Below are positions 9,537 to 37,650 of a stretch of DNA of 64,000 nt, piece by piece. The position numbers were made by a program, and so were the translations under genes. Within the stretch, counting starts at the first letter, position 1; the number at the start of each line of letters is the position of its first letter. The notes beneath the pieces are model-generated. The model did not search any database, was not told where the DNA came from, and saw nothing but the letters and a program-made list of their open reading frames with translations. Where the stretch lies: contig CAJJAT010000006.1 of assembly GCA_905182175.1 (NCBI GenBank), positions 1-64,000 of the forward strand, given 5' to 3'. This stretch comes from Flavobacteriales bacterium UBA1494. Lineage in GTDB: Bacteria > Bacteroidota > Bacteroidia > Flavobacteriales_E > Vicingaceae.

Positions 9537-9544
9537 TAAATTTG
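9537..9544 (+). promoter_or_regulatory. -7 promoter box for rlmG-like gene
   Basis: TAAATTTG followed by CACC is a perfect Bacteroidota TAnnTTTG box, 15 bases before the ATG at 9560. The untranslated leader would be under 10 bases. Confidence 0.7.
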
Positions 9545-9559
9545 CACCTTTATTTTACT

Positions 9560-10642
9560 ATGAATTCAGACCACTTGAGCCTTAATATTAAGCGTTACGA
9601 TTTATCAGACGACAAATCATTAAAAGCATCTAGTGCGGCAGATGAGCTGATTTTAAAAAGTTATACGGAGTTGAATTCAATAGACAAACTGCTTGCTATT
9701 TACAACGACCGATTTGGATATTTACGTTGTCATTTAAATCACTTGAACCCAACAAGTATTTTTACAAATAAAAGTCAGCTAAACTCGATTGAATCAAATT
9801 GTAAATCCAATCGTCTTGTTTTTAACAATTGTTCAGACCCCCTCACTTCTTTAGAAAACAAAATTGACCTTGCTGTATTAAGAATGCCAAAATCATTGGC
9901 TCTTTTTGAACTTTACCTTCAACACATTTCTAAAAACTCTACTCCCAGGGTGCAGGTAATAGTGGGATATATGACCAAGTATTTTAGCCCAAAAATGATT
10001 GAAATAGCTGAAAAGTATTTTTCCACCGTAGAACAAAGTAGAGCAGTTAAAAAGGCAAGAGTAGCAACGCTCTCAGGAAAACGAATGCTTGAAAAAGCTG
10101 AAATGATAGACTTCTTAGCCTATAACAATCGAACGTATCGACAATATTGGGGTGTCTTCTCAGCAAAACACATTGATTATGCCACTCAATATTTTCTAAA
10201 ACACATTAAAACAACACCCAAAGATTTGCATATTTTGGATTTAGCATCGGGTAATGGAGTAATTGCAAATGAGCTTTTGAAGATCCTTCCCAATTCAACA
10301 TTTCACTTAATAGACGATTCCTTCCTTGCAGTTGAATCCGCCAAATTGAACGTTGCCGGAGAAAATGTACACCATTATTTCGAAAACAACTTGTCCACTT
10401 TTACAGACCATGCCTTCGATTTAATTGTCAGCAACCCTCCCTTCCATTTTGAGCATGAAATAAACATTCAAATTCCAATTCAATTGTTCAAGGAATGTTA
10501 CCGGTGTTTGAAACCAGGAGGTAATCTACAAATGGTAGCTAATAACCACCTCAATTACAGCAGTCAATTGAAAAAAATTTTCCCAACTGTTGAAACGGTT
10601 GTACAAAACGAGAGCTTTGTGGTGATTAGGTGTCAGAAATAG
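9560..10642 (+). CDS. rlmG: RlmG-like 23S rRNA guanine-N2 methyltransferase
   Basis: 360 residues in two tandem methyltransferase-type halves. The N-terminal half (about 1-185) is degenerate and keeps 'AADELIL' and 'LAVLRMPKSLALFE', as in RlmG/RsmC proteins. The C-terminal half has SAM motif I 'ILDLASGNGVI' (near 224-234), 'IDDSFLAVESA' and the catalytic N-P-P-F motif 'IVSNPPFH', typical of enzymes methylating the exocyclic amine of guanine in rRNA. The C-terminus 'VANNHLNYSSQLKKIF' and 'VQNESFVVIR' matches RlmG (G1835 in E. coli numbering). ATG 9560 is preferred over TTG 9542, which overlaps the promoter. The family is best known from Gammaproteobacteria, so its place in a cassette-like region of a Bacteroidota chromosome suggests transfer. 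Confidence 0.85.
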   Translation: MNSDHLSLNIKRYDLSDDKSLKASSAADELILKSYTELNSIDKLLAIYNDRFGYLRCHLNHLNPTSIFTNKSQLNSIESNCKSNRLVFNNCSDPLTSLENKIDLAVLRMPKSLALFELYLQHISKNSTPRVQVIVGYMTKYFSPKMIEIAEKYFSTVEQSRAVKKARVATLSGKRMLEKAEMIDFLAYNNRTYRQYWGVFSAKHIDYATQYFLKHIKTTPKDLHILDLASGNGVIANELLKILPNSTFHLIDDSFLAVESAKLNVAGENVHHYFENNLSTFTDHAFDLIVSNPPFHFEHEINIQIPIQLFKECYRCLKPGGNLQMVANNHLNYSSQLKKIFPTVETVVQNESFVVIRCQK

Positions 10643-10763
10643 CCTGTCAGTTAGTTCAATTTACTTGCGCCACTGTTTTGTAATTTAACAGTAGCTAAGA
10701 GCCTAAAATGTTACTTTTAACTACGGTGAAACGTTACTGCACAGGAATATTTTCACAATTAAA

Positions 10764-11442
10764 TTGAAAAAGACAGTTTACATTTTATTCAGTATTTTAT
10801 GGGTCAGCCGTGGAGGCTATGCTTCTGATTATGTTCGGTTTGAAACAGCCCAATCTGATGGTCTAAAGAAATCTGATTCATTTGGCAGAAAAATCAAAGG
10901 AGAATACATCAACTACTCCAATCCAAATAACAGGTTAATCATCTCAGATAACTTGATTTTGAATGCGCAAACAGTTCACATCAAAATCCACCGAGATGAC
11001 TTAAAGTTCGACTCAACAATTTCTATAGACAAGAATGTTGATGATCAACTAACCTATTTTTTTAAAAAATAAAGGATATGGTATTGAAATAACTCATGAT
11101 ACAATAAACGCATTTCAAACCTTCTTTAATACACTCTTCAATATTTCAAAAAATCAAATACTTAAAAAATTCAAAGGAAGCTATTTTATCAACTTTAAAG
11201 TCGTCAAAAACTCTTAGAAGGTCCAAAGATTCAATCTCCAGAAAGACACTTTACTAATAGGTCAAATTACTCCTTCTGACACTTTGCTTCGCTTTAATTT
11301 TATTGTCAAAAACGAAAAGCTGAATGAATCGGATAGTTCTACAATTAATGAATACTTTGTTCATTCAAGTAAGAAAGAGTTTAAGAAGTTGCTGAAGCCT
11401 TACTCTTTTGAAGAGACAGAATGTTACTACAAAGTGAAATAA
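10764..11442 (+). pseudogene. Exported hypothetical protein, frameshift plus in-frame stop
   Basis: A TTG start is followed by a signal peptide (MKKTVYILFSILWVSRGGYA) and about 80 further residues ending at a stop near 11,072 in a T7/A6-rich stretch. A second frame takes over at once ('KNKGYGIEITHDTINAFQ') and runs to 11,442 (ending 'ECYYKVK'), interrupted only by TAG at 11,215-11,217. The two parts join into one plausible protein of about 225 residues. The break at a homopolymer could in principle be a sequencing indel, but the separate TAG argues for real decay. The family is unknown. Confidence 0.6.
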
Positions 11443-11564
11443 TAACTCGCTTCTTTGGGTTTGTTTCCTCTCTTTTAAATCTGTCTGCCTTGCCTCCGTT
11501 TTATAATTTATTCTTTTAGCTAACGGGGTTGAATTGTTATTTTTAAATAGTGCGAAACCTTACT

Positions 11565-11572
11565 TAACTTTG
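11565..11572 (+). promoter_or_regulatory. -7 promoter box for the broken gene at 11,614
   Basis: TAACTTTG is a perfect TAnnTTTG box about 40 bases upstream of the remnant start codon. Confidence 0.55.
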
Positions 11573-11613
11573 ACATTGGTAACTTTAAAAAATCACTTCA
11601 AGTGAAGATACCA

Positions 11614-12081
11614 CATGTAAAACTTCATTCTTGCTTTTGCTCTTTTTTATCTGCTACCAAGTAAATACGCAAAACCCAACGGTTGAAAGTAGTTCAACCA
11701 TAGGTTTTTATACCATTGCTCCAAAGGTTGGTCTTGGCTTTCATGACTTCTTGAACACTGAAATAGCAAGTATTTACACCAGTTTTGTTCTTCAGTAAGA
11801 AAACTGATAATTTGATATATATACTCCAGGATTTAAAGTTGGAATTCAAAATTCGTGGACCATTTTTATGTGAGGGTTTAGAGTTCAAAAAGTTATATCC
11901 TAATAATCGCAGTTACGACTGCCTGTCCCCTAAAATAGGATTAAGTCGGATGGATATTTTTAATCTAGAATATGCCTTTAATATAATCGACAAAAACAAA
12001 GATTTTGAAATAAACTCAATCCACCGAATTTCAATAAATATAAGTTTTATAAAAAAACAAGAGGTATATCGGATATTTTAA
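11614..12081 (+). pseudogene. Outer-membrane barrel-like exported protein, frameshifted
   Basis: ATG at 11,614 is followed after one extra T by an in-frame signal peptide (KTSFLLLLFFICYQVNTQ) and 'STIGFYTIAPKVGLGFHDFL'. That frame closes near 11,790, and the adjacent frame continues with 'LKLEFKIRGPFLCEGLEFKK', 'CLSPKIGLSRMDIFNLEYAF' and 'SIHRISINISFIKKQ'. The alternating beta-strand pattern and the repeated 'PKxGLxxxDxxNxE/YA' look like a small outer-membrane barrel. At least two single-base shifts are needed to read it, so it is a pseudogene with its promoter still in place. Confidence 0.6.
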
Positions 12082-12207
12082 CTCCGATTGATTTCCTCTT
12101 TAGGGGTTACGCTCCCTGCCTTAATCTTTACAAATATAGGTAGTTAACTCAATTTTCTATTAATACTTTATACGTTTTGGGCTAGTTTTAGAGTTTATAA
12201 AATCAAA

Positions 12208-13704
12208 TCACTTCAACGCCTCTTCTACCATTTCCATTTTCTCTATCATGTAAATTAAACTAGTGTCCAATCTATAGCAAGTTTGAAATCTTTCTAATGC
12301 TTCTAAAGAATCTCCTTGCATCAACAATGCATCTCCATAACTATCATAAGTATTCGCAGACTCAGGAAACTCTTTTATATTTAACTCAAAAACAACCAAA
12401 GCTTCTTCTAATCTATCACGCTGTAATAAATTATATCCCAAACTATTGAGTTCCATTTCACTTCTATAGTAATTTGCAGAGTCGTTCTTTTTTTCGCGGT
12501 AAAAATCGATGGCCTCAGCGCTATTTTTAGAATAAATAAGTTTAGTCATCGCTTTAGCAATGCTCAATTTTGGAGAATTATAAAGCGCATTCGCTCTAAT
12601 ACTATCAATAGCATCTGTTATGGTTGTAACAGCGTTTGAGGAGTTGTTGGTGAGCACAACATAACCGCTTTTCGTTTCAACTTCATTATAAAGAAAGGTT
12701 CCAAAACCAACCCAACCTCCTGCGTGAAATACTGTTTTAGGCAAGGTTTTATCTTTGGGAAATTTCCATCCAAAACCATATCTGGTCTTTTCGCCATTGT
12801 TGAGTTGTCCTCCGGACCACGCCTCGTAAAGGTATTCTTTTGGAACAAATGTATAGTTCACCAAGGCCATGTTCCATTTATACAGGTCATTTAATGTGGA
12901 GTAGATGCCACCATCGCCTCGAACATCGTTTACAATATCGTAATCATTAAGTAAAAAGTCGGTCTGATTAAAAGCTACTCGGTAACCAAATACTCGATTT
13001 GGCATGTTGGCATCAGCTTCTATTTGATAGTTATACAGCGTTGTATTTGTCATACCAATGAGATCAAAAATATTTTCTTTCAAGAAATCTCTAAAATGTT
13101 GTCCAGAAATTTTTTCGACAATTGAAGCTAGCAACAAATACCCTGTATTGCAGTACTCCCATTTTTCGCCAGGTTGAAAGTCTAATTCAGGATGAACTCT
13201 AAAAAACAGCTCCAAAATTTCATCATTGCCTAAAATATAACGTTTCGTTGAATCTTCAGGGACAAAATGATCTTCAATGATTTGCTCGTAGTCGGTAAGA
13301 CCGGAAATATGGTGTAGCAAGTGCTTCACTGTGATATTATCGTAAGGAAAATCAGTTAAAATTGAATTTACTTTTTGGTTGTAACTTAACCTCCCTTCTT
13401 CCTTAAGTTTTACAATAGACATACCTGTAAACTGCTTGCTAACTGATGCCAAACGGAATTGAGAATTTAAAGTTAAAGTGTCGAGAGGGTCAATGGAGCG
13501 TAGGCCATTGCTACTTGTAAAGACAATCTCTTCATCTTCATAAATCAAAATATTTCCTGTTTCAATTCCTTTCGCTTTCATTTCTGAAACAAACTTTTTA
13601 TATTGAGTTATTTTTGTATTTCGTTCAACATTACTTTCGGTTGCGCACCCAAAAAAGCAGGTTGTAACCATGCACACTGTAATAAAACGGATATATAATT
13701 TCAT
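12208..13704 (-). CDS. Beta-lactamase-family serine hydrolase lipoprotein
   Basis: 498 residues. The signal ends in a lipobox (CFFGC, Cys20), so it is a lipoprotein. The class C beta-lactamase/PBP fold carries all three active-site motifs: S87-x-x-K90 (SVSK), Y184-C-N186 and H327-A-G-G. The last 110 residues are helical and end in two TPR-like repeats ('YDSYGDALLMQGDSLEALER'). Such proteins in Bacteroidota are usually peptidases or family VIII esterases and not antibiotic-hydrolysing enzymes. It is divergent from the polyester hydrolase gene at 13,906, with about 200 bases between the start codons, so the two could share regulation. Confidence 0.85.
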   Translation of the reverse strand: MKLYIRFITVCMVTTCFFGCATESNVERNTKITQYKKFVSEMKAKGIETGNILIYEDEEIVFTSSNGLRSIDPLDTLTLNSQFRLASVSKQFTGMSIVKLKEEGRLSYNQKVNSILTDFPYDNITVKHLLHHISGLTDYEQIIEDHFVPEDSTKRYILGNDEILELFFRVHPELDFQPGEKWEYCNTGYLLLASIVEKISGQHFRDFLKENIFDLIGMTNTTLYNYQIEADANMPNRVFGYRVAFNQTDFLLNDYDIVNDVRGDGGIYSTLNDLYKWNMALVNYTFVPKEYLYEAWSGGQLNNGEKTRYGFGWKFPKDKTLPKTVFHAGGWVGFGTFLYNEVETKSGYVVLTNNSSNAVTTITDAIDSIRANALYNSPKLSIAKAMTKLIYSKNSAEAIDFYREKKNDSANYYRSEMELNSLGYNLLQRDRLEEALVVFELNIKEFPESANTYDSYGDALLMQGDSLEALERFQTCYRLDTSLIYMIEKMEMVEEALK

Positions 13705-13905
13705 CTTTTATGGTTAAGTCCTAATAGTTGTGGAAAGGTACATTTATAATATTTCTATGACAAAAAACTACTTCCCTCTATCGTTTTGTACAATTGTTGT
13801 TATATAAAAATTTGAGTCTTAAATTAGCACTGGAATGTGTCAGAGGACTCCTTTGATTACTCCTACTTTACAACACATCCATCAGCTCACAATACAACAA
13901 GAAAC

Positions 13906-15039
13906 ATGTTCAACAAAGTAACCTATTTAGTGCTCGTTCTGTTTTTAAGCAACACCGTTGGCTATTCACAAAACTGTGCACCCTTAACACTAGATTCTAT
14001 CTCCAATCCGGGAATATATACGACTGCTTCTTACCTAGAATCAAGTGGTATGCGAAATGGCCCTGATTATGCAGGTGCAACCGTTTATTACCCTACAAAT
14101 GCGACCCCTCCTTTTGCAAGTATTGTCATTGTTCCAGGATTTGTTTCTGCCCAATCTACCATTCAAACTTGGGGCCCTTTCTTGGCTTCGCATAGAATTG
14201 TTACCGTGACAATAGGAACAAATAGTCTTTTTGATGATCCAATCGCCAGAAAAGATGCCTTGCTTGATGCCATTGTTTCAATTTCACGAGAGAATACTCG
14301 AACTAGTTCTCCACTTAATGGCGATTTAGACACCACTAAGATGGCAGTGGCCGGTTGGTCCATGGGCGGCGGCGGCGCTCAGCTAGCGGCAGTTGCAGAC
14401 ACAACAATTAAAGCTGTTGTTGCGCTTTGCCCTTGGTTAAGCACAGCTACAACTAATGCAGCTACGTTAACACACCCTGTACCAGTATTAATTTTTAGTG
14501 GAGAGTTGGATGGAGTTGCTCCGCCAGCATTACATGCCGATGTTCATTATGGCTTCACTCCACGAACCACAAATAAATTACTTTTTGAAGTAGATAGTGC
14601 TGGACACAACGTTGCCAACAACCCAATAGGAGGTCAAGGTTTTGTTGGAAAGATTGCTCTATCTTGGCTTAAGCAATACCTTGTTGGAGATAGTTGTTAC
14701 TGTCCATTAGTACTTAATGCCCCATCTACCTCTTCCAAATACCTGACAAATGTTTCTTGTCCAGTCACTACGACCTCCCTTAACAAAGTAGAAAAAGCAA
14801 GTAATTTATCGTTTCAATTGTACCCCAACCCAAGTAAAGGAAAAATTCAACTTAAAGTTGAAAATTTAGGGGCACAAATAACTTACGAGATTATTTCTTT
14901 GAATGGCGCTAAGATATCTCAAGACAGGGTTCAAGACCGAATTACAACCATCAACATTAATAATTTTCCTTCAGGAATGTATCTCTTGAATTTGATGACA
15001 CCTAAATCTTCAGAAAGGATTAGATTTATTGTTTTGTAG
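13906..15039 (+). CDS. PETase-like polyester hydrolase with T9SS sorting domain
   Basis: 377 residues: signal peptide (1-22), alpha/beta hydrolase core (about 25-265), linker, and a T9SS C-terminal domain (about 303-377, starting 'FQLYPNPSKGKIQL'). The nucleophile elbow GWSMGGGG holds Ser152, the acid is Asp202 in 'GELDGVAP', and the base is His234 in 'SAGHNVANN'. 'CPW' gives Trp177, where PETase has its wobbling Trp, and 'PGFVSAQSTI' puts Phe79 at the oxyanion aromatic (Tyr in Ideonella PETase). Cys264 and Cys285 can form the C-terminal disulfide; the extra active-site disulfide of Ideonella PETase is absent. The domain layout matches the marine Bacteroidota PET hydrolases. ATG 13,906 is chosen because the signal peptide begins there. 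Activity on cutin-like or other polyesters is likely; PET activity is untested. Confidence 0.85.
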   Translation: MFNKVTYLVLVLFLSNTVGYSQNCAPLTLDSISNPGIYTTASYLESSGMRNGPDYAGATVYYPTNATPPFASIVIVPGFVSAQSTIQTWGPFLASHRIVTVTIGTNSLFDDPIARKDALLDAIVSISRENTRTSSPLNGDLDTTKMAVAGWSMGGGGAQLAAVADTTIKAVVALCPWLSTATTNAATLTHPVPVLIFSGELDGVAPPALHADVHYGFTPRTTNKLLFEVDSAGHNVANNPIGGQGFVGKIALSWLKQYLVGDSCYCPLVLNAPSTSSKYLTNVSCPVTTTSLNKVEKASNLSFQLYPNPSKGKIQLKVENLGAQITYEIISLNGAKISQDRVQDRITTININNFPSGMYLLNLMTPKSSERIRFIVL

Positions 15040-15129
15040 CGGGAAATATATCACACAGTTCATTGATACATCGCAAGCGGCAAGCCTGCAAAAGAATGAA
15101 CAGAAATTTATCGTTTAAAATTACATACC

Positions 15130-15303
15130 ATGGGAAGTACAAACTGGGTAAAATTTTTGTTAGGAGTTGGCATAGCAGCCGTGCTTAGCGGAGTCTATTT
15201 TATCGTTCAAGGCGATTCTGTTGAAGGAATCACAAATATGATCATTGGAGTATTTGTCGTTTTTTTAAGCAGAAAGCAACTAAAAGACAACAACAGTAAG
15301 TAG
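15130..15303 (+). CDS. Small two-helix membrane protein
   Basis: 57 residues starting MGSTNWVKFLLGVGIAAVLS. Two hydrophobic helices (about 8-26 and 34-47) are joined by the turn 'QGDSVEGIT', and the C-terminus is basic (SRKQLKDNNSK). It starts 91 bases after the hydrolase gene and could be cotranscribed with it. The hydrophobicity pattern is coherent and the stop is clean, but I know no family for it, so it is a plausible small gene and no more. Confidence 0.5.
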   Translation: MGSTNWVKFLLGVGIAAVLSGVYFIVQGDSVEGITNMIIGVFVVFLSRKQLKDNNSK

Positions 15304-16908: not shown

Positions 16909-17216
16909 TATCGTGAGCGATATAAACGCAAACGATATTATAAAACAACTCCAATTCTAGCCATGTTTAGAACCCTCCTAGTGCCTTTATAATTTATACG
17001 AGAATAATCCACCTAACTTTTAGCAGAGTTGAATTTCAAGTGAAAGTTCTAAACCAGATTCCACGTAGTGAAAGGTTGATGGTGATTTTATCTGGCAATA
17101 TAGAAACGGCGCTTGGAAACGGATTAGCACAATGGAAAAGCCAATCAAAAAAATTGTTTGGCCAGCTTGTTTGGCCAGCTCTTAAAAAACATCAAGAATT
17201 AAAAAACAAACTTACT

Positions 17217-17690
17217 ATGGACGACTCAAATCTAAAGCTAAACAATCAGATTTGCTTTCCAATTTACTCCACCTCAAGACTTATAACGAAGGCATACAAA
17301 CCTTTTTTGGAAAAAATGGGCATTACCTACCCACAGTATTTGGTACTTATGGTATTGTGGGAAGACGATGAGCTATCCGTAAATAAAATAACAGAAAAGC
17401 TACTGTTGAACACCAACACACTGTCGCCGTTGCTGAAGCGAATGGAGAAAATAGAGCTGGTAAACCGGACCCGTTCCAGTAAAGATGAACGCAGTGTGGT
17501 GGTGAAACTGACAGAAAAAGGGAAAAAATTAAAAAGTGAAGCACGTCCTATTCCCGAAAAATTGCTTGGATCGCTATTAACGGAGAACATTGAGTTATCT
17601 GATGTATTGCAGTTAAGAGAAATGCTCGGAGAATGGATAAAAGTACTCTCAAGCAAGACTAAAAATATAGACGGGCCTCAACTTATTTGA
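17217..17690 (+). CDS. ohrR: OhrR, organic-hydroperoxide-sensing MarR repressor
   Basis: 157 residues from ATG 17,217. 'LKLNNQICFPIYSTSRL' aligns with the N-terminus of Bacillus OhrR, in which this Cys (here Cys13) is the peroxide-sensing residue. 'MGITYPQYLVLMVLWE' holds the conserved Tyr that hydrogen-bonds to it. The winged helix follows ('NTLSPLLKRMEK') with the wing 'RSSKDERSVVVKLTEKG', a MarR signature. Cys13 is the only Cys, so it is the one-Cys type, which relies on an external thiol to lock the oxidised state. A longer frame from GTG 17,040 would add 59 residues with no family support. It opens a seven-gene operon that contains ohr. Confidence 0.9.
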   Translation: MDDSNLKLNNQICFPIYSTSRLITKAYKPFLEKMGITYPQYLVLMVLWEDDELSVNKITEKLLLNTNTLSPLLKRMEKIELVNRTRSSKDERSVVVKLTEKGKKLKSEARPIPEKLLGSLLTENIELSDVLQLREMLGEWIKVLSSKTKNIDGPQLI

Positions 17691-17769
17691 GATCTAGAAA
17701 AAAGCAAAGACACAAGCAAATTGGGATACACTCAGCTGCTTTAATCACATACCTAAACTAAAACGTATT

Positions 17770-18753
17770 ATGAAAGTATTACAAATAGAAAAATACGGTG
17801 AATTGAAAGATGCGTTATCTTTTACCGAAACTAAAAAGCCAACCGTTAGCACTACAGATATTCTTATTGAAACTAAAGCTGCAAGCCTCAACCCTATCGA
17901 TTATAAATTGGTGAGCGGAGGTTTAAAAGATATGGTTCCGTTGGATCTGCCGATTACTATTGGCTTTGATGTAAGTGGTATAATTTTAGAGAAAGGAGAA
18001 GGTGTAACTGGCTTTGAAATAGGTGACGAGGTATATACCCGAGTACCTCAAAATCAGATGGGAACAATAGCAGAATATGTTGCTGTGGACAGTATGGTAG
18101 TTTCTAAAAAGCCGGAAAACATCTCATTTGAAGCAGCAGCTAGTTTGCCCCTAATTGGACTCACCTCTTTTCAAGCGTTGGAACGGGTAGGTTTGAAAGC
18201 AGGCGATAAAATACTGATTCACGCAGGTTCGGGCGGTGTGGGTAGTTTTGCCATACAATATGCAAAGGCCAAAGGAGCTTATGTTTACACCACTACAAGC
18301 ACTAAAAATGTAGAATGGGTTAAAGCACTTGGCGCAGATCGTGTAATTGACTATAAAAAAGAAGATTACAAGACTGTTGTATCAGAATTAGATATTGTTT
18401 TTGATACACTTGGAGGTGACTACACACTTGATGCATTTAAGATCATAAAAGAGGGTGGTAAAGTAAGTAGTATCGCTAGCATACCCGATGAGGAAACAGC
18501 TGCAATGATGGGCATGGAAGGTTATAAATTACCTGAAAACTTCTCTACATTGATAAAAGAAAAATCAGCTAATTATAAGCTAACCTGGATGCAGCCAAAT
18601 GGGAAGCAACTAGATTCGATATCAGACATGGTAAAAGAAGATAAAATTAAAGCTGTAATAGATACCGTTTATTCTTTCGAAGATGCAATTAAAGCTTACT
18701 TATATCTAGCTGAAGGAAGAGCAAAAGGAAAAGTAATCGTCAGCATGTCCTAA
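17770..18753 (+). CDS. Zinc-free NADP-dependent quinone oxidoreductase (MDR family)
   Basis: 327 residues in two domains: a GroES-like catalytic domain (about 1-130) and a Rossmann domain (about 130-260) with the nucleotide motif 'AGSGGVGSFAIQYAKAKG'. The zinc-ligand Cys and His residues of alcohol dehydrogenases are absent, as in the quinone oxidoreductase/enone reductase branch. 'ALGADRVIDYKKEDY' is the typical NADP-selecting region. It starts 79 bases after ohrR in the same direction. Enzymes of this branch reduce quinones or alpha,beta-unsaturated carbonyls with NADPH, which fits removal of lipid-peroxidation products. Confidence 0.85.
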   Translation: MKVLQIEKYGELKDALSFTETKKPTVSTTDILIETKAASLNPIDYKLVSGGLKDMVPLDLPITIGFDVSGIILEKGEGVTGFEIGDEVYTRVPQNQMGTIAEYVAVDSMVVSKKPENISFEAAASLPLIGLTSFQALERVGLKAGDKILIHAGSGGVGSFAIQYAKAKGAYVYTTTSTKNVEWVKALGADRVIDYKKEDYKTVVSELDIVFDTLGGDYTLDAFKIIKEGGKVSSIASIPDEETAAMMGMEGYKLPENFSTLIKEKSANYKLTWMQPNGKQLDSISDMVKEDKIKAVIDTVYSFEDAIKAYLYLAEGRAKGKVIVSMS

Positions 18754-18802
18754 GTAATAGGAGCACTGAAACAATTAATACCTATTAAAAGAGGGAGATA
18801 AT

Positions 18803-19438
18803 ATGAAGAAGGAAAAAGAAAATATATTAGTGGCCGGAGCGAACGGTACCACAGGAAGAATCATTGTAACATTATTAAGCGAATCTGATTCTTATAGACC
18901 TGTTGCCATGGTAAGAAAGCAGGAACAAAAAGATCATTTTGAAAAAGAAGGTATTTCGACAGTGCTTAGCGACCTAGAAGGTGACGTAAGTTTCGCCGTT
19001 AAAAACGTGGATAAGGTAATTTTTGCTGCAGGATCAAAAGGTAAAAATGTAATCGGAGTTGATCAGGAAGGAGCAAAGCGACTAACGGATGCTGCAAAAA
19101 GATATGGAGCAAAGAAGTTTGTTATGTTAAGTACCATGGGAGCTGACAACCCTGCTGTAAGCGAAAATCTTGAAGATTACCTAAGCGCAAAACAAAATGC
19201 AGACGATTATCTAAAGATCAGTGGACTAAACTATACCATAGTGAGGCCAGGAGCCCTAACCGATGAAGAAGGCACAGGAAAAATTGAGCTGAAAGAAAAA
19301 ATTAATACCCACGGAAGTATTACAAGATCCGATGTTGCCAAAACCCTTGTCGAGGTGCTGAAAGACGCTGTAAAGGAAAATCACGTTTTTGAAATTTTAG
19401 CAGGTGAGACACTCATTATAAACGCAATTACTCAATAA
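18803..19438 (+). CDS. NAD(P)-binding SDR/NmrA-like protein
   Basis: 211 residues. The N-terminal Rossmann motif 'VAGANGTTGRIIV' (G-x-x-G-x-x-G) and 'MVRKQEQ' are of the atypical/extended SDR type, and 'VMLSTMGADNP' with 'YLSAKQNADDYLKISGLNYT' matches the YwnB/YtfG-like small epimerase group. 'YTIVRPGALTDEEGTG' is the usual motif closing the fold. Many members are NADPH sensors or reductases without a complete catalytic triad. It lies 49 bases after the reductase gene and 34 bases before ohr, clearly within the operon. The substrate is unknown. Confidence 0.8.
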   Translation: MKKEKENILVAGANGTTGRIIVTLLSESDSYRPVAMVRKQEQKDHFEKEGISTVLSDLEGDVSFAVKNVDKVIFAAGSKGKNVIGVDQEGAKRLTDAAKRYGAKKFVMLSTMGADNPAVSENLEDYLSAKQNADDYLKISGLNYTIVRPGALTDEEGTGKIELKEKINTHGSITRSDVAKTLVEVLKDAVKENHVFEILAGETLIINAITQ

Positions 19439-19472
19439 TAAATAAAATACACACAACTTTAACTATTTAAGA

Positions 19473-19895
19473 ATGAAAATAATGTACACAGCAGAAGCAA
19501 CTGCAACGGGTGGTAGAAATGGCCACGTAAAAAGTAGCAATGACATTTTAGACCTACAAGTAAGAGCCCCCAAAGATTTGGGCGGAGCAAATAACGACTA
19601 TGCAAATCCTGAAATGCTTTTTGCCGCAGGATATTCGGCTTGTTTCGATAGTGCCTTAAACTTGGTTATCAAAAAAGGTAACGTAAAAACAGGCGAAACC
19701 ACTGTAACTGCAAAAGTCAGCATCGGACAAATTGAGAACGGTGGATTTGGTCTGGCAGCTGAATTGGCGATAAATATTCCAGGAGTAGGTGCAGAACAAG
19801 CAAAGGAGTTAGCAGAACAAGCGCACCAAGTATGTCCTTACTCCAACGCAACTCGCGGTAATGTGGAAGTAAAACTATCTGTCACCACCACTTAA
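19473..19895 (+). CDS. ohr: Organic hydroperoxide resistance protein Ohr
   Basis: 140 residues, the full length of Ohr/OsmC-family thiol peroxidases. Catalytic Cys57 lies in 'GYSACFDSAL' and resolving Cys121 in 'HQVCPYSNATRGN'. 'TGGRNGHV' provides the conserved Arg (Arg15), and 'NPEMLFAAGY' the Glu (Glu47) that orders the active site. The enzyme reduces fatty-acid and other alkyl hydroperoxides in the cytoplasm, using dihydrolipoyl thiols in characterised members. Its place four genes after OhrR makes the regulator assignment secure, although two reductase-type genes separate them, which is unusual because ohr and ohrR are normally adjacent. Confidence 0.95.
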   Translation: MKIMYTAEATATGGRNGHVKSSNDILDLQVRAPKDLGGANNDYANPEMLFAAGYSACFDSALNLVIKKGNVKTGETTVTAKVSIGQIENGGFGLAAELAINIPGVGAEQAKELAEQAHQVCPYSNATRGNVEVKLSVTTT

Positions 19896-20021
19896 TAATG
19901 GCAAATCTCAATGCATATTTTATAGAATGTGCAACAACATGGCCTTTTTAGATTTAACTAAGGCCGAGTGCATCAAGCCTACGAAATAGCTAGGAATACT
20001 ATCAAATTCTAACAGACAACT

Positions 20022-21023
20022 ATGAATAGTACAAAAACAATTAATTTAAAAAATAGGCCCAATGGAATGCCTGAGTTAAAAGATTTTGACTTTATTACGA
20101 CAGAAGTTCCTGAACTACAAAAAGGAGAAGTATTGCTCAGCACAAAGTATATTTCAGTAGACCCTTACTTAAGAGGAAGAATGAGTGATGCACCGTCCTA
20201 TATCGCACCTTTTGAAATCAACCAGCCTATTGTATCGGGCATGATTGCTGAAGTAATCGAATCTAAAAACAGCAACTTCAGCGCAGGAGAATTTGTTTCT
20301 GGAATGCTAGAATGGAAAGAAACTCAGGTAGCAACGACCGATGGTTTACTGAAAGTTGATGCAAATCAAGCACCACTTTCTACCTACCTCGGTATATTGG
20401 GCATGACAGGGCTTACTGCCTATTTAGGACTAACCGAGATAGGGAAACCAAAAAAGGGTGAAACGCTATTGGTCTCCGGTGCAGCCGGAGCAGTTGGAAG
20501 TGTTGTCGGACAAATTGGTAAAATCCTTGGGCTCAGAGTAGTCGGCATTGCAGGAACAGATGAAAAGGTAGAAATGCTAAAATCTGAGTTCGGTTTTGAC
20601 GAAGGAATTAATTACAAGACAACCGAAAACATGACAAAAGCAATTGCCGAAGCTTGTCCAAACGGTGTGGATGTATACTTCGACAATGTAGGTGGCAAAA
20701 TCTCTGAAGCTGCATTCTTTAACATTAATAAGTTTTCAAGAACCATCAACTGTGGGGCGATCTCTGTGTACAACAACACCGAAGCTCCAAAGAGTATAAG
20801 CGTACAACCCTTTCTGATAAAGAAAAGCTCTTCGATGCAAGGCTTTGTGATTTTTGATTTTGTAGACAAACACCCTGCCGGTGTAAAACAATTAACAGAA
20901 TGGTTAAGCGCTGGTAAGTTAACCTATAGTGAAACAATTAGAGAAGGGTTTGAAACCATACCCCAAGCCTTTTTGGATCTTTTCGTAGGAAAGAACAAAG
21001 GAAAAATGGTAGTTAAACTTTAA
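20022..21023 (+). CDS. NADP-dependent enone/curcumin-type reductase
   Basis: 333 residues of the MDR superfamily, in the leukotriene B4 12-hydroxydehydrogenase/CurA branch. The N-terminus 'NRPNGMPELKDFDF', 'YISVDPYLRGRM' and 'GMTGLTAYLGL' are hallmarks of this branch. The Rossmann motif is 'VSGAAGAVGSVVGQIGKILG', and 'DVYFDNVGGKISEAAF' follows. Family enzymes reduce the C=C bond of alpha,beta-unsaturated aldehydes and ketones with NADPH and are known to detoxify 4-hydroxynonenal-type compounds. It lies 126 bases after ohr and 14 bases before the next gene. Confidence 0.85.
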   Translation: MNSTKTINLKNRPNGMPELKDFDFITTEVPELQKGEVLLSTKYISVDPYLRGRMSDAPSYIAPFEINQPIVSGMIAEVIESKNSNFSAGEFVSGMLEWKETQVATTDGLLKVDANQAPLSTYLGILGMTGLTAYLGLTEIGKPKKGETLLVSGAAGAVGSVVGQIGKILGLRVVGIAGTDEKVEMLKSEFGFDEGINYKTTENMTKAIAEACPNGVDVYFDNVGGKISEAAFFNINKFSRTINCGAISVYNNTEAPKSISVQPFLIKKSSSMQGFVIFDFVDKHPAGVKQLTEWLSAGKLTYSETIREGFETIPQAFLDLFVGKNKGKMVVKL

Positions 21024-21037
21024 AATAAAATACAATT

Positions 21038-21838
21038 ATGAAAAATATTAAATTAATAGTGTTAGCATTAACTGTCTTTGGATTTACAGCATGCGACCAA
21101 AAGGAAAAACCAGAAGCTGAAAATAGTACAGCAGAAACTGAAAAACAGTTAACTGTATTGTTGGTACTCACCTCGCATGATCAATTGGGAGACACGGATG
21201 AAAAAACCGGATTCTGGGTAGAAGAATTTGCTGCTCCATATTATGCCCTACTTGATGAGGGAGTAATAATAACCGTTGCTTCTCCTAAAGGAGGAAAAGC
21301 TCCAATCGACCCAAGAAGTAAATCTGAAGCAAGTCAAACAGAAGCTACAAAGCGTTTCAACGGTGATAAGACCGCACAACAACTCATTGAAAACACAGTA
21401 AAACTGGAAGGAATAAAGGCAGCAGATTTTGATGCTGTATTTTACCCTGGCGGACACGGTCCATTGTGGGATCTTGCAGAAAGTACCACCTCCATTGCGC
21501 TAATTGAAGCGTTTAATAAACAAGACAAACCAATGGCCTTTGTATGTCATGCTCCTGCTGTTTTAAAAGAAGTTAAAAACCCAGAAGGAGAGCCACTTGT
21601 AAAAGGCAAAAAAGTAACAGGGTTTACCAATACGGAGGAGGAAGCGGTTCAGCTGACTGATATTGTGCCATTCTTAGTAGAAAATATGCTGAAAGAAAAT
21701 GGAGGGATCTATTCCAAAGGAGATAACTGGAGTGTTCATGTGGTTAAAGATGGGAATTTAATTACTGGACAAAACCCTGCTTCTTCGAAGTTAGCAGCAG
21801 AACTTTTATTAAAACAATTGAAGCAAAACAACTCTTAA
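21038..21838 (+). CDS. DJ-1/PfpI-family lipoprotein (class I GATase-like)
   Basis: 266 residues. The signal ends in a lipobox (VFGFTAC, Cys19), then an acidic linker (about 20-40) and a DJ-1/PfpI domain. The nucleophile elbow is 'AFVCHAPAVL' with the reactive Cys, and 'YPGGHGPLWDL' gives the conserved Gly-His. The size and insertions match the Hsp31/HchA-like branch, whose members are deglycase/glyoxalase III-type proteins acting on methylglyoxal-type carbonyls. Most relatives are cytoplasmic; the lipobox puts this one on the periplasmic side. It lies 14 bases after the reductase and 15 bases before the VOC gene. Confidence 0.85.
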   Translation: MKNIKLIVLALTVFGFTACDQKEKPEAENSTAETEKQLTVLLVLTSHDQLGDTDEKTGFWVEEFAAPYYALLDEGVIITVASPKGGKAPIDPRSKSEASQTEATKRFNGDKTAQQLIENTVKLEGIKAADFDAVFYPGGHGPLWDLAESTTSIALIEAFNKQDKPMAFVCHAPAVLKEVKNPEGEPLVKGKKVTGFTNTEEEAVQLTDIVPFLVENMLKENGGIYSKGDNWSVHVVKDGNLITGQNPASSKLAAELLLKQLKQNNS

Positions 21839-21853
21839 TAAAAATAACGCGCT

Positions 21854-22363
21854 ATGAATAAAACCAATTACCCCAAATCATTTTCCCACATCGGAATTAC
21901 GGTACCAAATATTAAAAAGGCAGTTGAGTTTTATGAAGAAGTCATGGGATGGTACATCATAATGCAGCCTTCTACCGTAAAAAAGGAAAAAGAAACTGCC
22001 ATTGGTCAAATGTGCATCGACGTTTTCGGTGAAGATTGGGAGACATTCGAAATCGCACACATGTCCACCTCTGATGGAATTGGAATCGAATTGTTTTCGT
22101 TTCCGAATGGAATTAAAGAAGCTCCGGAATTTAACCCTTTCAATACAGGACTGTTTCACTTTTGTATTCAAGACCCCAACATTGAAGAATTGACAAGCGA
22201 GATTGTGGCGCATGGAGGAAAACAACGCATGCCAATTCGGGAGTACTATCCAAATGAAAAGCCGTTTAAAATGGTCTACGTAGAAGATCCTTTCGGAATT
22301 GTTTTTGAAATTTACACCCACAGCTATGAATTAACCTATTCATCAGGGGCTTACACATCATAA
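21854..22363 (+). CDS. VOC-family (glyoxalase/dioxygenase-like) protein
   Basis: 169 residues forming two beta-alpha-beta-beta-beta modules of the vicinal-oxygen-chelate fold. 'SHIGITVPNIKKAVEFYEEV' opens module 1 with a metal-ligand His, 'GIELFSF' supplies a Glu, 'LFHFCIQDPNIEEL' opens module 2, and 'YVEDPFGIVFEIYTHSY' ends with the last Glu. The ligand set fits a metal-dependent enzyme such as lactoylglutathione lyase or an extradiol-type dioxygenase. It is the last gene of the OhrR operon, and a strong terminator follows 18 bases after the stop. Processing of a reactive carbonyl or dialdehyde is the most likely role. Confidence 0.8.
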   Translation: MNKTNYPKSFSHIGITVPNIKKAVEFYEEVMGWYIIMQPSTVKKEKETAIGQMCIDVFGEDWETFEIAHMSTSDGIGIELFSFPNGIKEAPEFNPFNTGLFHFCIQDPNIEELTSEIVAHGGKQRMPIREYYPNEKPFKMVYVEDPFGIVFEIYTHSYELTYSSGAYTS

Positions 22364-33957: not shown

Positions 33958-34446
33958 TTACTTCAGACACTTAAAGTAATCAAATGGCTCATGGCAGTCG
34001 TTACATTGAAATAAGGCTTTACAAGCAGTTGATCCAAAACGACTTACCATTTTAGTATCTTTCGAACCGCAGTTGGTGCAATTAATAGTGTTTGGTTTCC
34101 CCAACAATGCCTCTTTATCAACTTCAGCAGATCTTGGAGCCGCTATTCCATATTTTTCTAAATCAGCTCTGCCTTTTGGTGTAATCCAGTCGGTGGTCCA
34201 AGCCGGCGCTAGAACTAATTTTATTTTTACTTTTAACCCTTCTTTTTCGAAGGCTGAAATCACATCATCCCCAATCGTATCCATAGCAGGACAACCGGAG
34301 TAAGTGGGAGTTAAGTTAATGTGGTACACGTCTTCTACCAATTTTACTTCCCGTACAATTCCCATATCCATGATGGACAGTACAGGGATTTCAGGGTCGT
34401 TTACCGAAGCTAATAATTGATGTATTTCAGGAGAAACTTCAAGCAT
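33958..34446 (-). CDS. paaD: Phenylacetyl-CoA epoxidase assembly protein PaaD
   Basis: 162 residues. The MIP18/DUF59 domain is at the N-terminus ('VNDPEIPVLSIMDMGIVREV' and 'LTPTYSGCPAMDTIGDDV', with the conserved Cys), and a C-terminal zinc-ribbon-like segment follows ('CTNCGSKDTKMVSRFGSTAC' then 'FQCNDCHEPF'). This is the architecture of PaaD (PaaJ), needed to mature the epoxidase complex, probably through Fe-S or metal insertion. I choose the ATG at 34,446; a TTG two codons upstream is possible. It is the last gene of the paaEABCD operon and is nearly fused to paaC. Confidence 0.93.
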   Translation of the reverse strand: MLEVSPEIHQLLASVNDPEIPVLSIMDMGIVREVKLVEDVYHINLTPTYSGCPAMDTIGDDVISAFEKEGLKVKIKLVLAPAWTTDWITPKGRADLEKYGIAAPRSAEVDKEALLGKPNTINCTNCGSKDTKMVSRFGSTACKALFQCNDCHEPFDYFKCLK

Positions 34447-34452
34447 GACCAA

Positions 34453-35208
34453 CTACCATTTCATATTTGGATATGCTCTTTGCATGTATTGAAATTCAGC
34501 TAAGATAAAGCCCATATTTTCAGAATGCATGCCTGTTTTTGCTCCGTATTGAAAAACAGTATCTTCATGTATTGTCAGATTCGCTTCCGCTAAAACTTCT
34601 TTAACTGTTTCTAAGTAAGCAGACTTTAGCTTTTCTAAATCAGGTCCTACTCCAGTTTCTGCTGCCCACAATTCAGTATCCGTTGGTTTAAACAACTCCA
34701 TTGAATACCTCCACAATGTATTTACCGCTTCTTGCATTTTGGAATGACTTTCATCTGTTCCATCGCCAAGGCGTTTCATCCACGTTGATGAAAATTCAAC
34801 ATGATAATCAACCTCTTTAATTGATTTATTAGCAATCGCTACTAAGGTATCATTTTTACTTGATTGTAGTTCTCGCAAGACCAATTGGTGGTAAACATCA
34901 AAAAAGAACTGACGAACAATTACATGTGCAAAGTCCGTATTTGGTTGTTCTACCAAATATGTATTCCGATATTCATTCTCATAACGCAGCATTGCAGTAC
35001 TATCCTCAGTTGCGCCTTCACCTTTAATTTCGGCAGCGGCTTGAAAGTAGTTCCTTACTTGACCGAAAAGATCCAATGAAATATTAGTCAATGCAATGTC
35101 AGTCTCCAATTCAGGACCATGTCCACAGAGTTCTCCTAAGCGCTGGCCCAGAATCATTGAATTATCGCCAAGATGTAATAAGTAATCGTATAGTTTTTCT
35201 TGTAACAT
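34453..35208 (-). CDS. paaC: Phenylacetyl-CoA epoxidase structural subunit PaaC
   Basis: 251 residues, all-helical ferritin-like fold. 'YLLHLGDNSMILGQRLGELC' opens the protein as in known PaaC, and 'ALTNISLDLFGQVRNYFQAA', 'DFAHVIVRQFFFDVYHQLVL' and 'ANKSIKEVDYHVEFSSTWMK' follow in family order. The subunit keeps the fold of the catalytic subunit but holds no di-iron centre; it forms the heterodimer that shapes the PaaA active site. It lies between paaB (3 bases) and paaD, with almost no spacing. Confidence 0.95.
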   Translation of the reverse strand: MLQEKLYDYLLHLGDNSMILGQRLGELCGHGPELETDIALTNISLDLFGQVRNYFQAAAEIKGEGATEDSTAMLRYENEYRNTYLVEQPNTDFAHVIVRQFFFDVYHQLVLRELQSSKNDTLVAIANKSIKEVDYHVEFSSTWMKRLGDGTDESHSKMQEAVNTLWRYSMELFKPTDTELWAAETGVGPDLEKLKSAYLETVKEVLAEANLTIHEDTVFQYGAKTGMHSENMGFILAEFQYMQRAYPNMKW

Positions 35209-35211
35209 AAA

Positions 35212-35496
35212 TTACATGTGCTTTATTTCGTCAGGCAATTCGTAAAAAGTTGGATGGCGGTACACCTTATCGGCTGCCGGTTCAAACATTTCACCATTCT
35301 TGGCAGGGTTTGAAGCTGTAATTTCTTTTGATTCTACGACCCAAATACTTACACCTTCTTGTCTTCTGGTGTATACATCTCTAGCATTTTGAATTGCCAT
35401 TTCGGCATCCGCAGCATGTAAACTTCCACAATGACGGTGCTCTAAACCGTTTTTACTTCTGATAAAGATTTCCCAAATGGGCCATTCTTGATTCAT
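35212..35496 (-). CDS. paaB: Phenylacetyl-CoA epoxidase subunit PaaB
   Basis: 94 residues, the usual length. 'WEIFIRSKNGLEHRHCGSLH', 'ADAEMAIQNARDVYTRRQEG' and 'VWVVES'-type strand ('ISIWVVESKEI' region) are characteristic of this small subunit, which bridges PaaAC units into the larger complex. The C-terminus 'DKVYRHPTFYELPDEIKHM' is the conserved tail. A 92-base gap separates it from paaA; no independent promoter is evident. Confidence 0.95.
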   Translation of the reverse strand: MNQEWPIWEIFIRSKNGLEHRHCGSLHAADAEMAIQNARDVYTRRQEGVSIWVVESKEITASNPAKNGEMFEPAADKVYRHPTFYELPDEIKHM

Positions 35497-35588
35497 CTTT
35501 TTATTATTTTGGTTGGTTTACATTTCAACTTTACTTAGTTTACCAAACTTAGAAATGTCTAACTATGAGAAGTCGAATTCAACATTCA

Positions 35589-36542
35589 TTAAGCTGACTT
35601 CTTTGCTCTCTTTTCCGCTTGCTTGTTGGCATATGCTGTAGCAGCATCTCTTACCCAATCGCCATTATCCCAAGCAGTATTTCTATCTTTTAAACGCTTT
35701 TCATTCATCAAACCGTTTCCTTTCACAACATTCCAAAATTCCTCCCAATTAATTGGGCCGAAATCGTAATGTCCTGTTTCTTCATTCCATTTAATGTCTT
35801 TATCAGGCATCGTTAAGCCTAACAATTCTGCTTGAGGAACTGTTTGGTCAATAAATTGCTGACGCAGCTCATCGTTTGTTTTTTTCTTGATCTTCCACTT
35901 CATTGACTGCTCAGTATTCGGAGACTCTTCGTCTCGTGGACCGAACATCATCATGCTTGGCCACCACCATCTATTCAATGAGTCTTGTGCCATTTGCTTT
36001 TGAACAGCCGTTCCGTTGCAAAGTGACAACATAATCTCATATCCTTGTCTTTGGTGAAAACTTTCTTCTTTACAAATTCTCACCATCGCTCTAGCGTATG
36101 GTCCATAAGAAGTTTTGGTCAACATTACTTGATTGATGATGGCTGCACCATCAACTAACCAACCTACAGCACCCATATCTGCCCAAGAGACAGTTGGATA
36201 ATTGAAAATGCTTGAATATTTTGCTTTTCCCGAATTCAATTGCTCCATCAACTGATCCCTAGAAATACCTAAGGTTTCTGCTGCACTGTATAGATATAAA
36301 CCGTGACCTGCTTCATCTTGAACCTTTGCCAATAATGCAACCTTTCTTCTTAAGGAAGGAGCTCTTGTAATCCAATTTCCTTCAGGTAACATCCCAATTA
36401 TTTCAGAATGACCGTGTTGTGAAATCTGACGGATGTGAGTTTTTCTGTATTTCTCCGGCATCCAATCTTTCGCTTCGATACTGTCGCCTTGATCAATTCT
36501 GCTTTGAAACTGCTCTTCTAAACTTAATGTCTTATTTTCCAT
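35589..36542 (-). CDS. paaA: Phenylacetyl-CoA epoxidase catalytic subunit PaaA
   Basis: 317 residues of the bacterial multicomponent mono-oxygenase type. Di-iron ligands come from helices holding '[20 protein letters not shown]' (E-x-x-H) and '[18 protein letters not shown]' (E-x-x-H). '[20 protein letters not shown]' and '[20 protein letters not shown]' are signatures of PaaA. With PaaB, C and E it converts phenylacetyl-CoA to ring-1,2-epoxyphenylacetyl-CoA, the committed aerobic step. It lies 11 bases after paaE. Confidence 0.96.
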
Positions 36543-36553
36543 AACTTAAATTT

Positions 36554-37621
36554 TTAACTGTCGAAATCGACAACAATTTTACTTGACTTTGGAACCGCTT
36601 GGCAAGTTAATATATATCCTTGTTCTACTTCATCTTTTTCCAACGCGTAGTTTACATTCATTGGTGCTATACCTTCAATAAGTTTAGCTTTGCAAGTGCA
36701 ACAAACTCCTCCTTTACAGGCAAAGGGTAAATCTGCATTGTTTCTCATTGCAGCGTCTAAAATGTTTTCTCCATTTTGGTTCATTTTAAACGATACTTGA
36801 ATTCCATTTGTTATAATCGAAACATCCGAAACGTCCTTATTGTTCACGTCCAACACCTTCTTTTTGGCAGTTTTTGTCGGCGTTCCAAATAATTCAAAGT
36901 GAACTTTAGATTCCTCAACTCCTTGCGCATACAAGAAGTCACGAATCATAAAAATCATTTCAATTGGCCCACAAAGAAAAAATTCATCAACTGATTTAAA
37001 GTCAATTATTTTTTCAGAAATTGTATGAAGTTTTTCTTCCGTAAAGCGCCCATTAAATAACGGCGCATCTCTCATTTCTTTCGTTAAGAAATGGTATAAT
37101 TCATAGCGACCTAAAAACTGATTTTTAAGCCCTTCAATCTCCTCTCGCAAAATCATAGTCTGCACAGATTGATTCAAATAAAACAAACTAAATTTAGAAT
37201 CAGGCTCTTGGTTTAAATGAGTTTTAATAATTGAGTTTATTGGAGTAATTCCACTACCTGCTGCAAATGCAACATATCTTTTTTTCTTTTCGGGGTTCAT
37301 CTCGGTAAAAAAACGGCCGTTCGGTGGCATTACTTCTATGGTATCCCCTACTTTCAAAACATCGTTCACAAAGGTTGAAAAGCGCCCATCTTCTATTTTT
37401 TTAACAGCCACCTGCCATTGATTATCAATTGGACTACTGCACAATGAATACGAACGACGTACTTCCTCTCCCTTAATGTTGGCCTTCAATGTAAGGTACT
37501 GACCTTGCTTGTAAGCAAAAGCTTCTTTTAGCTCATCTGAAATATCAAAGGTCACAACTGAACAATCAGGTGTTGTTTTAACTATATCGCTTATTTGAAT
37601 GGAGTGAAATTGTTGAGACAT
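36554..37621 (-). CDS. paaE: Phenylacetyl-CoA epoxidase reductase PaaE
   Basis: 355 residues from ATG 37,621 (MSQQFHSIQISDIVKTTPDC); the longer frame from 37,645 adds eight unlikely residues. The FAD domain has 'RRSYSLCSSP' (R-x-Y-S), the NAD domain has 'FAAGSGITPINSII' and ends 'FFLCGPIEMIFMIR', and the C-terminal plant-type 2Fe-2S domain has 'CKGGVCCTCKAKLIEG' plus a distal Cys ('ILTCQAV'). It passes electrons from NADPH to the PaaA di-iron site. Here it leads the operon (E-A-B-C-D) and not the end, as it does in the proteobacterial order. Confidence 0.95.
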   Translation of the reverse strand: MSQQFHSIQISDIVKTTPDCSVVTFDISDELKEAFAYKQGQYLTLKANIKGEEVRRSYSLCSSPIDNQWQVAVKKIEDGRFSTFVNDVLKVGDTIEVMPPNGRFFTEMNPEKKKRYVAFAAGSGITPINSIIKTHLNQEPDSKFSLFYLNQSVQTMILREEIEGLKNQFLGRYELYHFLTKEMRDAPLFNGRFTEEKLHTISEKIIDFKSVDEFFLCGPIEMIFMIRDFLYAQGVEESKVHFELFGTPTKTAKKKVLDVNNKDVSDVSIITNGIQVSFKMNQNGENILDAAMRNNADLPFACKGGVCCTCKAKLIEGIAPMNVNYALEKDEVEQGYILTCQAVPKSSKIVVDFDS

Positions 37622-37642
37622 ACCAAATTTTATGATTCTTAA

Positions 37643-37650
37643 CAAAGTTA
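37643..37650 (-). promoter_or_regulatory. -7 promoter box of the paa operon
   Basis: On the minus strand the sequence reads TAACTTTG, a perfect TAnnTTTG box, 21 bases before the paaE start codon. No TetR/PaaR-type dyad is obvious near it. Confidence 0.65.

Follow-up and report, generated by a model that had tools for sequence, protein, structure and literature searches.

In the window, the whole stretch of 64,000 nucleotides analysed here from a Flavobacteriales bacterium, a gene was identified for a 377-residue protein which, as judged from its sequence, is very probably a secreted serine esterase or polyesterase of the PET27/PET30 branch of Bacteroidota. Sequence comparison places it in the T9SS branch of Bacteroidota, just beside the subclade formed by PET27 to PET30, and the gene was probably acquired by this Flavobacteriales lineage on an insertion of about 4.4 kb. 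The architecture, the fold, the motif and the export tail have already been described for this enzyme family (PMC8767016). New are a member from a long-loop group in which no assayed enzyme was found, a correction and extension of the disulfide assignment, and the comparison of the insertion site.

The reading frame encodes 377 amino acids with zero internal stops in translation (Table 1). The mechanical open reading frame starts further upstream, at a GTG (13837). With the ATG at 13906 as start, the hydrophobic leader is N-terminal and the start matches those of the relatives. For PET27 to PET30, cleavage of the signal peptide was predicted at residues 23-24 (PMC8767016). A lipoprotein anchor via Cys24 was considered and dismissed by eye, with Asn preceding the Cys (Gln in the relatives) and a lipobox being absent.

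Table 1. Features of the PETase-family gene, its product and the surrounding segment, in window positions.
Feature	Position	Strand	Evidence
377-aa secreted PETase-family hydrolase with T9SS tail	13906..15039	+	PF12740 5e-53, PF18962 2.5e-11, PDB 7PZJ 4e-108
Probable Sec signal peptide, residues 1-21, cut near GYS|QNC	13906..13968	+	Hydrophobic leader read from sequence
PETase alpha/beta-hydrolase domain, residues 36-278	14011..14739	+	PF12740; AlphaFold2 mean pLDDT 93.2; VIA-align 2 to 7PZJ
Catalytic Ser152 in GWSMG	14359..14361	+	Aligns with IsPETase Ser160
Clamp Trp177 and extended loop behind it, residues 178-192	14434..14481	+	Alignment: 15 aa versus 10 aa in PET27-30
Catalytic Asp202	14509..14511	+	Aligns with IsPETase Asp206
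Catalytic His234	14605..14607	+	Aligns with IsPETase His237
Cys24, inferred partner of Cys264	13975..13977	+	Joint presence/loss in informative alignment rows
Cys264-Tyr-Cys266; Cys266 = PET30 C262, pairs with Cys285	14695..14703	+	Residue numbering and alignment
Cys285 = PET30 C285	14758..14760	+	Alignment
Type A T9SS C-terminal sorting domain, residues 305-377	14818..15036	+	PF18962, TIGR04183
Segment of about 4.4 kb with the PETase gene, missing here in three congeners, edges approximate	10645..15089	.	Congener locus comparison
Divergently oriented neighbour of the PETase gene: serine hydrolase of the beta-lactamase fold (PF00144), TPR-like tail	12208..13704	-	Pfam; inside the same inserted segment

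In Pfam, the PETase model PF12740 matched the protein with 180.6 bits (E 5e-53), compared to 18.4 bits for DLH and 17.8 bits for Abhydrolase_1, and every model for a general lipase, DLH, AXE1 or Abhydrolase identity remained under its cut-off. The NCBIfam model for BHET hydrolases gave 133.7 bits, far under its cut-off of 520. The predicted T9SS sorting domain was recovered both by the Por_Secre_tail model PF18962 (E 2.5e-11) and by TIGR04183 (42.6 bits versus a cut-off of 23). A dienelactone hydrolase-like enzyme, as represented by PET93 and PET94 of marine flavobacteria, would be in line with the weak DLH match, which did not reach the cut-off of 21 bits, but this identity is very improbable: PETase is ahead of DLH by 160 bits, and PET93 and PET94, compared here by description, lack the PorC tail (PMC13188925) which is present in the 377-residue protein.

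Among PDB sequences, the best match of the protein was 7PZJ, PET30 of Kaistella jeonii (E 4e-108). An AlphaFold2 model was calculated with 63 aligned sequences as input and reached a mean pLDDT of 93.2. With this model, 7PZJ ranked first in Foldseek and also in VIA-align 2 (Z 41.9, rmsd 1.5 A over 259 residues), where the IsPETase entries followed near Z 38. Identities of the protein over residues 24-285 amount to 61.5% with PET30, 63.0% with PET27, 64.6% with PET29 and 60.7% with PET28, compared to 36.3% for IsPETase and 34.5% for LCC. The rows of PET27 to PET30 were assigned by the species or strain stated in PMC8767016, and the reference sequences of IsPETase and LCC agree exactly with the PDB chains. 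The nearest relative among the best 80 of 140 is a protein from a Saprospiraceae MAG (L014) with 69.5% identity over the same residues.

The original prediction had named Ser152 in GWSMG, Asp202 in ELDGVAP, His234 in SAGHNVAN and Trp177 in CPW, and each was found at the number given. The Phe predicted at the oxyanion position is Phe79 (PGF), at the oxyanion/clamp position, and Met153 is also present. In the alignment, Trp177 corresponds to IsPETase Trp185, Phe79 to Tyr87 and Met153 to Met161. The triad and the clamp align with those of IsPETase, LCC and PET27 to PET30 (with a Tyr for the Trp in PET30). Binding residues of the type Phe-Met-(Trp/Tyr/Ala) are the motif of the PET27/PET30-type enzymes from Bacteroidota (PMC8767016). 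The protein has the PETase domain, the Ser-His-Asp triad, F79/M153/W177 and the T9SS tail of these enzymes.

For 7PZJ, one disulfide was reported, C262-C285 (PMC8767016), which by residue numbering maps to Cys266-Cys285 of the protein described here. A C-terminal disulfide between Cys264 and Cys285 had been predicted; both residues are present, but the pairing is probably wrong, since in the C-Y-C motif it is the second Cys that corresponds to C262 of PET30, making Cys266 the partner of Cys285. Cysteines 24, 264, 266 and 285 occur together in 75 of the 88 aligned rows. The Neolewinella row L084 is devoid of 24 and 264 and retains 266 and 285, and L093 retains 24 and 264 and is devoid of 266 and 285. 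As the cysteines are lost or kept in these combinations, the pairs 24-264 and 266-285 are suggested, and Cys24-Cys264 is probably a second conserved pair of the branch, on the basis of two rows. The sequence thus has the cysteines of the C-terminal disulfide (C266, C285), while those of the active-site disulfide are absent (G199/V236). The lack of a second disulfide that had been stated for the branch therefore applies to the active-site pair of IsPETase, but not to the branch as such, which has its own conserved pair of C24 and C264.

In one genome scan, 140 relatives were confirmed, of which the best 80 were taken, with 75 of the 80 labelled as Bacteroidota; a separate scan of viral contigs found no relatives. 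A careful tree was built from 58 rows. In it, IsPETase, LCC and their kin were separated from the branch at 100/100, and the Bacteroidota rows formed a single group (99/98). Planctomycetes, Poribacteria and gammaproteobacterial MAG proteins (L081, L082, L083, L091 and L092) are located near the branch, fall outside of the Bacteroidota group and lack the four cysteines. A T9SS tail was identified by Pfam in 47 of the 63 members of alignment A2. The nearest row to the 377-residue protein is L014 (89/87), and a set of 16 rows that includes the protein and the Saprospiraceae proteins was obtained at 95/86. PET27 to PET30 are all contained in a subclade of 28 rows (100/99) to which the protein does not belong. 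Forcing it into this subclade was disfavoured (AU p = 0.022), which is only moderate evidence because the groups were picked after the tree was viewed. A clade of the protein with all Saprospiraceae rows was neither shown nor rejected (AU p = 0.255). Thus, the predicted membership in the Bacteroidota polyester-hydrolase branch is supported, with the qualification that the protein is placed outside of the PET27-PET30 subclade. A placement among general lipases or dienelactone hydrolases is not supported.

Between the clamp residue and the strand that follows, the loop has a length of 15 residues in the protein and in 25 other rows, 13 in the other Saprospiraceae rows, 11 in IsPETase and 10 in PET27 to PET30. 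In the cleft, V80, S81, T85 and N235 are present in place of T, A, S and S in PET27. Since PET27 to PET30 all lie outside of the long-loop group, the substrate range of the protein could differ from theirs; in the literature found, no assayed long-loop member of the branch was identified. It is tentatively considered, as a rather doubtful extension, that Saprospiraceae and other non-Flavobacteriaceae Bacteroidota might share a distinct group of long-loop, two-disulfide T9SS polyesterases, with substrates unlike those of PET27/PET30, and that the 377-residue protein might represent this group and have crossed from one order to another with a small insertion. In the literature found, four enzymes of the branch are shown to be active, all from one short-loop subclade, and the 377-residue protein and its sisters sample the remaining long-loop part. 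Testing one long-loop enzyme would tell whether polyester activity spans the whole branch.

PET27 to PET30, with 61-65% identity to the protein, were all shown to hydrolyse pNP esters, tributyrin, PCL, BHET and Impranil DLN (PMC8767016). By analogy, the protein is likely to act on polyesters in the broad sense, namely PCL, BHET and Impranil, and its sequence gives it a high likelihood of being a T9SS-secreted promiscuous polyesterase. TPA was released from PET by PET27 and PET30 only, at about 1/5 and 1/250 of the level of IsPETase, and PET28 and PET29 were negative on PET foil despite their Phe-Met-Trp layout (PMC8767016). PET27, PET28 and PET29 were mostly obtained in inclusion bodies (PMC8767016), so that negatives of the PET29 type may partly reflect expression. 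The catalytic domains of PET29 and PET27 are 95.5% identical, with the same Phe-Met-Trp residues, and none of the differences is located at the IsPETase cleft positions checked; PET activity is therefore not assignable to a diagnostic residue. Nor can it be inferred from the motif, since PET28 and PET29 share the layout but were negative on PET foil; the layout by itself is no predictor of PET activity. The contrast between PET27 and PET29 implies that motif-based PETase calls over-predict, which matters for metagenome surveys.

That the protein is a true PET hydrolase with a PET27-like turnover on amorphous PET is quite possible, without being the favoured reading. The Phe-Met-Trp residues of PET27, the identity of 63% to this enzyme and the same fold argue for such an activity, whereas the negative results on PET foil for PET28 and PET29, the clamp-side loop extended by 5 residues and the differences at V80, S81, T85 and N235 argue against it. 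In addition, a ring-hydroxylating dioxygenase alpha subunit (PF00848), which would be needed for the use of terephthalate, was not found in the 96%-complete host assembly, with the controls matching in 4 genomes, and for this reason the terephthalate dioxygenase route looks absent. A search of the host genome for tannase/MHETase returned nothing, with the controls being silent too. That the protein is a general lipase or short-chain esterase, secreted but inactive on polymers, is unlikely: the PDB entry calls PET30 a lipase, and the authors of PMC8767016 doubt a preference for PET, but the four soluble assayed relatives all clear PCL and Impranil plates and the general hydrolase models score far under the PETase model. 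A promiscuous polyesterase is preferred here, most likely with an aliphatic polyester or a lipid-like ester as its natural substrate; PET would be a slow side reaction at best.

The gene for SprA, the T9SS translocon, was identified in the host genome (sprA, 3.5e-169), with a match in 0 of 14 control genomes, and further genes with similar C-terminal tails are present. The genome also codes for another PF12740 protein, divergent in sequence and likewise with a T9SS tail (L002, G000:C14:149482-153057; C14:150982-151557), which scored 59.6 bits and is also chlorophyllase-like. In the proposed pathway, Sec would take the protein to the periplasm, where C266-C285 and probably C24-C264 would oxidise; the T9SS would then recognise and cleave off the tail, and the enzyme would be released or fixed on the cell surface. 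Outside, Ser152 is predicted to attack esters of polymeric or oligomeric substrates gripped by Phe79 and Trp177.

The PETase gene was not found at E 1e-25 in five congeneric genomes (84-93% complete) and fifteen listed family members. In the congeners G002, G003 and G004, a methyltransferase gene (window 9542-10642) is located within about 130 bases of a gene for a 57-residue protein (window 15130-15303), and in the host the same two flanking genes are about 4.4 kb apart. The segment between them contains two short open reading frames, the PF00144 hydrolase gene and the PETase gene. Its absence from the site in three congeners and that of the gene from all five congeneric genomes (0/5) indicate that the PETase gene was probably acquired, with repeated loss as a possible alternative. 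Contamination is argued against by both flanks being the host's own. Direct repeats of more than 9 bases were not found between the segment edges, and the segment contains no recognisable mobility gene. The GC content of the PETase gene is 0.408 and its GC3 is 0.304, with 0.354-0.403 and 0.287-0.403 for the neighbours, giving no clear foreign mark. At the level of RpoB, the host shares 97% identity with a congener, 74-78% with most of the non-Weeksellaceae Flavobacteriales tested, and 69-70% with Saprospiraceae and Lewinellaceae. The identity of 69.5% to the Saprospiraceae protein L014 is as high as that of RpoB between these groups, although secreted enzymes usually diverge faster, which makes horizontal transfer the simpler reading; RpoB was not found in the MAG of L014, and its Saprospiraceae host name is the record label.

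At 10645-12100, the open reading frames 10764-11072 and 11785-12081 lie in a stretch resembling broken genes, and a Pfam match was not obtained. Further downstream, the genes at 17040-22363 code for a MarR regulator (Pfam-checked), two quinone-oxidoreductase-like proteins, an NAD(P)-binding protein, and OsmC/Ohr-like, DJ-1/PfpI-like and glyoxalase-like proteins, and probably represent an oxidative or electrophile stress operon. At 33958-37645, paaD, paaC, paaA and a paaE-like gene are consecutive; these phenylacetate degradation genes were named by eye.

Compared to the known systems, PET30 (7PZJ) has the same fold, triad, cleft Phe and Met, C-terminal disulfide cysteines and T9SS tail, but carries a Tyr at the position of Trp177 and a loop of 10 residues instead of 15. 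The Phe-Met-Trp cleft, the four cysteines and the T9SS tail are all common to PET27 from Aequorivita sp. CIP111184, the loop of which is 5 residues shorter and which belongs to the separate subclade (100/99). PET28 from A. viscosa and PET29 from A. vladivostokensis likewise share the motif and the architecture, with a shorter loop. IsPETase, a type II enzyme, has the fold, the triad and the Trp clamp in common with the protein at an identity of 36%, but has no T9SS tail. Its Tyr87 is replaced by Phe79, and its active-site disulfide C203-C239 by G199/V236, so that the second disulfide beside the active site which characterises type II PETases is not present. IsPETase C273 corresponds to L270, the C-terminal disulfide beginning at C266 instead. 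The type III PETases HaloPETase1, dsPETase05 and R75estA contain a five-residue loop insertion after the clamp position, combined with a Thr/Gln/Tyr subsite I and GHSQG (PMC13396203). In the 377-residue protein, Phe/Met/Trp and GWSMG are found instead of these type III residues, and because the cleft residues differ, its long loop is a resemblance to type III and not a sign of membership.
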